A DNA stretch of 59,398 bases. Source: Dehalococcoidia bacterium. Lineage in GTDB: Bacteria; Chloroflexota; Dehalococcoidia; Lucifugimonadales; UBA826. Location: assembly GCA_029936675.1 (NCBI GenBank), contig JAPYSB010000002.1, forward strand, positions 258,294 through 317,691. Direction: 5' to 3'. Below the pieces are notes generated by a model. The model was not told the DNA's origin, made no database searches, and was given only the letters and a program-made list of their open reading frames with translations. Positions 9,870-12,540 of this stretch are shown here, in pieces. Made by a program: the position numbers and the translations under genes. Numbering within the stretch: position 1 is the stretch's first letter; each line of letters opens with the position of its first letter.

Positions 9870-10436
9870 TTATACTTTTTCTTTTGGTTGATAATGCAAC
9901 CAAGAGGCTGTGTTTTCGGATGTTCGAAGCCAAGAATTTACTAATGTTCCTTTCTCATCTTCTATTTCCACCCCCAGTCCATCTGCAAGTCTATTCATAA
10001 AGGCAAACATAGCCGTTATCATGACTACAGAAAGGATCTGATTGTCTGACAAACCTGTCTTTCTAAGAGTTTGGATATCGTTTTCCGTCATCTCAGAAGG
10101 TTCGTTGGTCAACTTCTCTACATACCCAACTATGGCCAGTGTTTCAACATCTAAAGCAGCGTCGCCATAATCCTGCATCACAATAGATGCCATTTCAGGA
10201 TCCTCTGTCGCCTGACGGAGATACTCCCCGTGCGAAACAGTTCAATATTTACAGTGATTTATGGAGGAAACTACGGTCGCTATTACTTCTTCTTGAGACC
10301 TAGTCAACGCCGAGGAGCCAAAACTGATTTTATTCCCCATATCCCACACCGCATGCATAGCTTCTTCGTTAATTGACATGCATTTAATGACATTGGCGAT
10401 ATCGGCATATTTAGGATCTTCTTTTATCCAGGACAA
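9870..10436 (-). CDS. AhpD-like/CMD-family selenoprotein with in-frame UGA (Sec65)
   Basis: Read through one TGA (10242-10244), the frame encodes a 188-residue carboxymuconolactone decarboxylase/AhpD-fold 'peroxidase-related' protein. The first part ends VVSSINHCKY, then UGA, then TVSHGEYLRQA. In the family this segment is NxCxYCxxxH, so UGA stands exactly at the second redox Cys, giving CKYU. Similarity continues unbroken in the same frame (NRLADGLGVE), which excludes a frameshift. A hairpin with SECIS features starts two bases after the UGA. The start is TTG at 10436 with GGGAGGG seven bases upstream. The gene follows the molybdoenzyme gene by 36 bases, probably in one operon. Expected role: thiol/selenol peroxide reduction. 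Selenium-insertion genes are not in this window. Confidence 0.8.
10205..10240 (-). promoter_or_regulatory. Putative bacterial SECIS element
   Basis: On the minus strand, starting two bases after the UGA, CUGU pairs with ACAG, CGC with GCG, and ACGGGG with CUCCGU (one G-U pair). Small bulges (UU, CAG) interrupt the stem, and the apical loop is AGUAU. A G in the first two loop bases and an apical loop 16 bases after the UGA fit what is known of bacterial SECIS elements. The pairing was found by eye and not folded with software. Confidence 0.65.
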
Positions 10437-10472
10437 CTAATAACCCTCCCTACAGGCGGATTTAATTGCCGG

Positions 10473-11525
10473 TTAAGGCGAGACAATTATTTTTATGGGT
10501 TTCGAACCATTTATAGCATAGCCCAATTCATTCCAAACTGCTTTTAAAGGCTGTTGCTCACCATCGCTGTTGGTGGCTCTCGATAGTAAGGTGTGTTCAC
10601 CAGGTGTATTTGGGGTCCATTTGTAATTCCACTGCTGCCATGAATACTGCTCCGACGGCCCTGTAAGTTCAGCTTCGATCCAACTATTCCCACAATCAAC
10701 AGAAACCTCTACTTTTGCTATGCCTGTTCGGCCCGACCAAGCGTTCCCGCTCATATGATAATCGGTGCAGCATTTCAAAGATTCATTTTCGCCAGGAGAG
10801 GTTATGGCTGATTTTACCTGCATTTCCTGCACAGGTTTCTCCGTTCCGTCCTCGTATTTGAGAACATATTTTTCCCCCTGAAAATAGCCGGAGAATGGTT
10901 TTGTCAGTGCTGTTATCTTGGTAAGCCATTTCACATGAGCCATACCGTACCATCCGGGAACAAGAAGGCGAACAGGATACCCGTGTTCAAGGGAAAGAGT
11001 TTCACCATTCATTTCATAGGCCAGCAAAGTGTCTTGGTGCCTAGCTAAATCTAGAGGTAAACTTCGCAAATAGGGCTCCGGATCTTTATCTGCCGTAGGG
11101 GATCCAATATCAGCCCCTTCAAAAAGTATTTCTACCACGTCTTCACTCAAATTCATACTCGAAAGCACCGAGTTTAATGATGTCCCTGACCAAACTGCAT
11201 TGCTAACCGCACCATTATCAAACTGATTACCCGGGGCCTTCGGATTCAAATCTGCCCTGTTGTTTCCGGCACATTCCAGTGTGACTGGTAGTGTATGTTT
11301 GGGTAACTGCCTAATATCATCTAGGCTGAAAGTTATTCTTTGGCCTCCTCGGCTGGTTGCTTGCAACCTCCAGGACTTTTCATCCACATCTGGATAATCA
11401 AATTGAGAGCGGACATAAAATAACGGATTAGGGGTCAGCCAACTGCCCAGAGCAATTTGCGGAGTTTCTCCAACATAAGGTTCGGTTCCCACAGTTTTTA
11501 GCCCAGAAGCATTAACATCATTCAT
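10473..11525 (-). CDS. Sulfite-oxidase-family molybdopterin oxidoreductase
   Basis: The 350-residue protein carries the oxidoreductase molybdopterin-binding domain (about 25-230), with the Mo-ligand Cys85 in TLECAGNNR and the typical NPLFYVRSQF segment. The C-terminal Mo-co dimerisation domain follows (about 240-345: VDCGNSW, WNYKWTPNTPGEHTLLSRATN). This is the core of sulfite oxidase/sulfite dehydrogenase. There is no heme domain, signal peptide or Tat motif, so it appears cytoplasmic, unlike many bacterial relatives. The substrate may be sulfite or another oxyanion. MoaA and MoaC, encoded 4-6 kb away, belong to the cofactor pathway. The AhpD-like selenoprotein gene follows directly. Confidence 0.85.
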   Translation of the reverse strand: MNDVNASGLKTVGTEPYVGETPQIALGSWLTPNPLFYVRSQFDYPDVDEKSWRLQATSRGGQRITFSLDDIRQLPKHTLPVTLECAGNNRADLNPKAPGNQFDNGAVSNAVWSGTSLNSVLSSMNLSEDVVEILFEGADIGSPTADKDPEPYLRSLPLDLARHQDTLLAYEMNGETLSLEHGYPVRLLVPGWYGMAHVKWLTKITALTKPFSGYFQGEKYVLKYEDGTEKPVQEMQVKSAITSPGENESLKCCTDYHMSGNAWSGRTGIAKVEVSVDCGNSWIEAELTGPSEQYSWQQWNYKWTPNTPGEHTLLSRATNSDGEQQPLKAVWNELGYAINGSKPIKIIVSP

Positions 11526-11688: not shown

Positions 11689-11940
11689 CTATCTGGGTTC
11701 TCTAGGCCTAGCCTCATTAACTCTAAGATCACGACCCATGAAATCATTGCTATCCAAAGCTGCAATAGCTTCTTTAGCTTTTTCATCCTCGGCCATTTCA
11801 ACGAATCCAAATCCTTTGGATCTACCTGTGTCCCTGTCAGTGATGACACGAACCGCGCTAACCTCGCCGTACCTAGTAAATAAATCTCTTAAATCGTCTT
11901 CACCAGTTCCGTACGAGATATTTCCAACGTAAATGTTCAC
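11689..11940 (-). CDS. RNA-binding protein, single RRM domain (copy 1)
   Basis: The 83-residue protein is one RRM domain, with RNP2 IYVGNI at 3-8 and RNP1 KGFGFVEM at 42-49, and a short basic tail RPREPR. It resembles the small RRM proteins of cyanobacteria and other bacteria linked to cold or RNA handling. The start is GTG, with AGGAAGAG a few bases upstream. It differs from copy 2 at only five of 83 residues. A conserved inverted repeat sits 28 bases before the start, inside the likely leader. Confidence 0.95.
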   Translation of the reverse strand: MNIYVGNISYGTGEDDLRDLFTRYGEVSAVRVITDRDTGRSKGFGFVEMAEDEKAKEAIAALDSNDFMGRDLRVNEARPREPR

Positions 11941-12124: not shown

Positions 12125-12376
12125 CTATCTGGGTTCTCTAGGCCGAGCCTCATTAACTCTAAGATCACGACCCATGAAATCATTGCTATCCAAAGCTGCA
12201 ATAGCTTCTTTAGCTTTTTCATCATCGGCCATTTCAACGAATGCAAATCCTTTAGATCTACCTGTGTCCCTGTCAGTGATGACACGAGTTGCGCTCACCT
12301 CGCCGTACTTAGTAAATAAATCTCTTAAATCGTCTTCACCAGTCCCGTACGCAATATTTCCAACGTAAATGTTCAC
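12125..12376 (-). CDS. RNA-binding protein, single RRM domain (copy 2)
   Basis: This is the second 83-residue RRM protein, with the same RNP2 (IYVGNI) and RNP1 (KGFAFVEM) motifs. It differs from copy 1 by S9A, R23K, V30T, G45A and E51D. The GTG start at 12376 matches copy 1; the open frame reaches further upstream, but that part crosses the conserved leader and is unlikely to be coding. It lies upstream of copy 1 on the minus strand, and its own terminator has decayed, so read-through into copy 1 is possible. Confidence 0.93.
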   Translation of the reverse strand: MNIYVGNIAYGTGEDDLRDLFTKYGEVSATRVITDRDTGRSKGFAFVEMADDEKAKEAIAALDSNDFMGRDLRVNEARPREPR

Positions 12377-12403
12377 TTCTTCTCTTCCTACTTTTAAACT
12401 AAT

Positions 12404-12423
12404 GGATATGCAAGTACATATCC
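12404..12423 (-). promoter_or_regulatory. Leader inverted repeat of RRM copy 2
   Basis: GGATATG at 12404-12410 and CATATCC at 12417-12423 repeat the copy 1 element with a spacer one base shorter, again 28 bases before the start codon. Preservation of both arms while the spacer changed argues for paired or palindromic function. Confidence 0.45.
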
Positions 12424-12540
12424 GGCTAACAATAATGGCAGAGTTGTACCACAATTGGCAACTCTATGCCCAGTATATATCTATTTTATACCTTTAAAGA
12501 ATATGTATTCAGCACCAATTATGTGGAATTACCCTTGAAT

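Follow-up and report, generated by a model that had tools for sequence, protein, structure and literature searches.

Gene content of the locus

The window (the whole stretch of 59,398 nt of DNA that was analysed) contains, on its minus strand, a gene for an AhpD-like protein that is interrupted by a single in-frame TGA and that follows a gene for a molybdoenzyme in the same orientation. The features on which the analysis is based are:

9870-10436, minus strand: gene of the predicted AhpD-like selenoprotein (TIGR01926/COG2128-type, CMD fold), with a TTG start, a TAA stop and 188 aa including one Sec
10242-10244, minus strand: UGA codon predicted to encode Sec65, the second redox position of CxxU; TGA in 7 of 7 family genomes with the gene
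10215-10231, minus strand: putative SECIS apical hairpin (7 bp; loop GUA of 3 nt) whose start lies 10 nt past the UGA; covariation in 24 Sec sequences
10444-10450, minus strand: GGGAGGG, from its sequence the likely ribosome-binding site ahead of the TTG; purine-rich in relatives
10473-11525, minus strand: gene of a molybdoenzyme of the sulfite-oxidase superfamily (Oxidored_molyb and Mo-co_dimer), upstream of the AhpD-like gene

When the TGA at 10244-10242 is read as a residue, one frame of 188 aa runs from 10436 to the TAA that ends at 9870, and the TGA, within NHCKY-U-TVSH, is its sole interruption. The list of open reading frames made under translation table 11 alone shows this gene only from an ATG at 10193 onward, and annotation that halts at the TGA will leave it truncated or split. 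For the profile searches the protein was entered with Cys replacing Sec. It matched Pfam CMD with 38.7 bits (cut-off 23; residues 25-84) and the NCBIfam model TIGR01926, “peroxidase-related enzyme,” with 135.6 bits (residues 3-160), well past the curated cut-off of 81.8, both matches spanning the TGA. A sequence-only reading of this DNA had claimed that an in-frame TGA splits one AhpD-fold protein without a change of frame, that it falls at the second Cys of the CxxC motif, and that a perfect GGGAGGG site precedes the gene. All of this was borne out: the continuous frame and the two profile matches cross the TGA, the aligned codon specifies Cys in remote relatives, and GGGAGGG is found at 10450-10444, 7 nt ahead of the TTG. 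Relatives of the gene have a purine-rich stretch at this place that does not always contain the exact motif. Elsewhere in the window, two neighbouring genes (11689-11940 and 12125-12454, minus strand) encode near-identical small proteins that, from the look of their sequences, are of the RRM RNA-binding type.

Conservation of the TGA codon

Of the eight genomes in the genus, six have the AhpD-like gene; within the family, a second genus has it too, and TGA occupies the identical codon in all seven genomes. The encoded protein shows 78-99% identity in the six members of the genus and 62% in the member of the other genus. More distant Dehalococcoidia also have TGA at the Sec65 codon, and remote relatives have Cys. 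Alignment with Cys-containing homologues, which had been proposed as a check, placed TGC or TGT at codon 65 in 12 of the 37 aligned homologues extracted, TGA in 24 and GAG in one. Of 393 genomes drawn from the class, 88 contained relatives, many of them with one TGA within the match, and the named records in the species collection are SAR202, Dehalococcoidia or Chloroflexi MAGs from separate projects. Among the pairs of genus members with a computable dS, dN/dS of the part after the TGA is approximately 0.02-0.12 (Nei-Gojobori), many of the dS values being saturated; such low values indicate that this part is under purifying selection as protein. The UGA is thus aligned to the Cys of homologues and followed by a frame that stays open and conserved, as in bacterial selenoproteins.

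In draft assemblies, a gene may show a lone in-frame stop because of a sequencing error or because it is decaying and has acquired a nonsense mutation, and the TGA could, on such general grounds, have come about in this way. However, the same TGA recurs in six species of the genus, assembled separately, and in other families, the sequence past it is under purifying selection, the codon specifies Cys in remote homologues, and the hairpin that follows covaries (see below). The probability of an error or a pseudogene is therefore practically nil, conservation across separate assemblies being the point that rules it out. A second in-frame stop (TAG) that had been reported in one homologue (G011) is the natural end of its gene. 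The viral contigs searched yielded no relatives, and the plasmid homologues of the protein are uninformative on its origin since all are less than 60% identical.

Some genomes contain several such genes. Four tandem AhpD-type genes lie within ca. 3 kb of a contig of another genome (L089, 5659-8251, minus strand; G253 contig C22), each with a TGA in CRYU or CRFU that is followed by a strong CGCAGGG..CCTGCG hairpin, and the array adjoins a LigXa-type oxygenase gene. A further genome (L087, 3120-4231; G020 contig C124) has a tandem pair of Sec AhpD-like genes, of which the second reads CRDU and not CRYU, and several more Sec AhpD copies were noted in G356 and G371.

A covarying hairpin downstream of the UGA

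The best pairing of the hairpin in the window comprises 7 bp and the 3-nt loop GUA. When columns are numbered from the T of the TGA, columns 14-20 pair with columns 24-30 to form the helix (window 10231-10215). With the uppermost A-U pair open, the hairpin obtains a 5-base loop with G in second position, so that, as in other selenoprotein genes, a hairpin with a G in its apical loop lies just downstream of the UGA. Folded as a single sequence it is moderately stable (z -1.85; 12 of 200 shuffles were as good); it becomes convincing because it is conserved. In an alignment of 24 distinct Sec sequences, standard pairs make up 93.5% of the pair cells, and changes on both sides occur in 17, both figures being above those of all 500 shuffles. 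The cells paired, the both-side changes and the covariation score stand out from the shuffles in this set; the counts of doubly changed pairs (3) and of pair types are not above them. None of the slid registers of the helix exceeds 54.2% of cells paired in the same sequences. At the loop-adjacent position, G-C, A-U and C-G pairs were all observed; columns 17/27 show G-C, C-G and G-U.

In a smaller set of 20 Sec sequences, without four Sec rows of which two are L049 and L050, 97.9% of the cells are paired and RNAalifold recovers the helix unaided. The drop to 93.5% in the larger set is mostly due to L049 (G343) and L050 (G147), two remote Sec homologues with CRYUAVGH that do not form the hairpin in the shared register; any SECIS element that they may have must look different from the shared form. 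The loop G is missing in one Sec relative (G012). The same columns of 11 Cys homologues have 51.9% of their cells paired, without excess over shuffles, and RNAalifold found no structure in them. The helix thus tracks the Sec codon and not the conserved HGxxLR protein sequence, although the Sec and Cys sequences also come from different phylogenetic groups. On the basis of these sequence comparisons, we identify the hairpin after the UGA of the AhpD-like gene as a SECIS element. The sequence-only reading had described a SECIS-like hairpin with bulged stems and a 5-base apical loop with G in second position. Its apical part stands, with the loop in that form if the A-U pair is open, but the bulged lower stem is absent from the conserved structure in the RNAalifold fold of the alignment.

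Selenocysteine machinery

The genome contains selA, selB, selC and selD; absence of selB and selC had been named beforehand as evidence against a selenoprotein. The tRNA-Sec (selC; anticodon tca) scores 65.5 bits (gathering score 47), SelB 351 bits (cut-off 242), SelA 530 bits (cut-off 268) and SelD 384 bits (cut-off 125). The source genome is a draft assembly with an estimated contamination of 3%, and the sel genes sit on contigs other than that of the window; their G+C content is 42-44%, that of the window 43%, and other members of the genus carry sel genes too. Among 20 related genomes, 18 have a selB above the cut-off, and selC is present in 17. Furthermore, the active-site motif of the genome's own SelD (L022, contig C10), CAGUASK, includes an in-frame TGA, which is an independent sign that UGA specifies Sec in this genome; as SelD would itself be a Sec protein, selenophosphate synthesis would rely on Sec insertion.

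It might be argued that the UGA encodes Trp or some other amino acid instead of Sec. We found no support for this, an open frame under such a code not being counted as such, and it is very improbable, given that homologues have Cys at this position, that a SECIS element follows and that a full Sec system is encoded. The gene almost certainly encodes an AhpD-like (peroxidase-related, TIGR01926) selenoprotein of a SAR202 bacterium (Dehalococcoidia) in which the UGA is read as Sec. The original interpretation of the locus as a selenoprotein gene with a CxxU site is, therefore, upheld by the conserved TGA, the purifying selection after it, the covariation of the SECIS element and the Sec machinery. 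Insertion of Sec at residue 65 in the cell is predicted from this same set of genomic features.

Active site and proposed mechanism

The active site of the AhpD-like protein comprises E50, C62, Y64, U65 and H69, i.e., CxxU together with a complete proton-relay set. AhpD of Mycobacterium tuberculosis works through Glu118, Cys130, His132, Cys133 and His137, and PA0269 of Pseudomonas aeruginosa through Glu36, Cys48, Tyr50, Cys51 and His55 (PMC3141380). The spacing of Glu50, Cys62, Tyr64, Sec65 and His69 is identical to that in both sets. Of the 24 Sec homologues, 22 have E-C-U-H at the AhpD spacing; the remaining two have D-C-U-H.

In the mechanism that we propose, the hairpin just past the UGA would recruit SelB and Sec-tRNA(Sec), so that the UGA would be read as selenocysteine and the gene would give rise to a small oxidoreductase with the AhpD fold and a CxxU site. 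Sec65, in the place of Cys133 or Cys51, would be activated by a proton relay of Glu50, Tyr64 and His69 and attack a peroxide or a disulfide. Cys62 may serve as the resolving thiol, yielding a selenenylsulfide that a cellular thiol reductant would reopen. These roles of Sec65 and Cys62 are assigned by analogy with M. tuberculosis AhpD, and the activity of the protein is predicted to be that of a peroxidase or thiol reductase.

The adjacent molybdoenzyme gene

The molybdoenzyme gene ends 36 bp upstream of the AhpD-like gene on the same strand. Its product matches Pfam Oxidored_molyb (173 bits) and Mo-co_dimer (58 bits), which places it in the sulfite-oxidase superfamily, and it contains VTLECAGNNR, which we take to be the usual Cys-containing motif of these enzymes. 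It reached none of the cut-offs for SorA (235.6 vs. 600 bits), SoxC (211.2 vs. 420 bits) and SorT (178.1 vs. 570 bits). Sulfite oxidase has been reported in SAR202 in general terms (PMC5395668).

The two genes are adjacent in all six genomes of the genus that have either of them, and both are missing in the other two. In addition to the identification as a selenoprotein, and without excluding it, they could form a dedicated unit: in this one SAR202 genus, the AhpD-like gene and that of the molybdoenzyme, which has no recognisable signal peptide, would be co-transcribed, and the selenoprotein would remove a peroxide or thiol oxidant arising from the oxidation of sulfite or organosulfur compounds. 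The shared strand, the short gap and the adjacency in the genus would fit such a unit. However, in sister genera each gene is found without the other, the AhpD-like gene in G006 and the molybdoenzyme gene in G001-G003 and G015, and in other families of the order the neighbours of the AhpD-like gene are different and include Rieske oxygenases. Within the genus, the flanking genes are equally syntenic: one flank holds the same MFS gene and the other, on contigs that extend far enough, the gene for an RNA-binding protein. The adjacency may therefore merely reflect common descent. Moreover, in G010 (L033, 5494-5970) an in-frame deletion has removed ca. 185 residues of the molybdoenzyme, including the molybdopterin-binding domain, and the AhpD-like gene is intact; either the molybdoenzyme gene has degenerated there or the assembly is wrong. 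A functional coupling of the two proteins is thus possible and weakly suggested by the gene order, and we consider the dedicated unit rather unlikely. The sequence-only reading had suggested that the operon with a sulfite-oxidase-like enzyme may be new; support for this is weak, as the two genes stay adjacent within the genus but occur apart outside it.

Comparison with known AhpD-like proteins

The peroxidase-related AhpD proteins of PDB entries 2oyo, 6k40 and 3c1l align with residues 3-161 of the protein in the window, and their CxxC falls at the position of its CxxU, with Cys where the latter has Sec. M. tuberculosis AhpD and P. aeruginosa PA0269 share the equally spaced Glu, Cys, His/Tyr, Cys and His (PMC3141380), but also have Cys in place of Sec and show little similarity beyond the active-site helices. 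NF041238 (AhpD_rel_CFYUT; Sargasso Sea hypothetical protein 1) represents a related AhpD domain with CxxU, of which the protein in the window is not a member (72 bits vs. a cut-off of 175). The AhpD-like marine selenoproteins are an abundant but functionally orphan family, known mainly from metagenome surveys. The Global Ocean Sampling survey of 2008 (PMC2398784) listed 299 Sec sequences of AhpD-like 1 (COG2128, CxxU), placing this group among the most frequent marine selenoproteins, and a 2026 review (PMC13188914) represents the AhpD-like selenoprotein by the model TIGR01926 with CxxU. As the protein in the window scores above the TIGR01926 cut-off, it belongs to this already described family, and the earlier remark that the family is not new but known from marine metagenomes is in agreement with both papers.

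A literature search of partial coverage returned no paper that names both SAR202 and selenoproteins. Judged by its published description, AhpD-like 1 shares with the protein in the window TIGR01926, a CxxU with Sec as the second residue, a SECIS element right after the UGA and a marine origin. There is no difference in kind; what distinguishes the present case is its placement in a SAR202 host that encodes the entire Sec system, and its position next to a molybdoenzyme gene. This family is now tied to SAR202 bacteria with complete Sec machinery and has a clearly covarying SECIS element.
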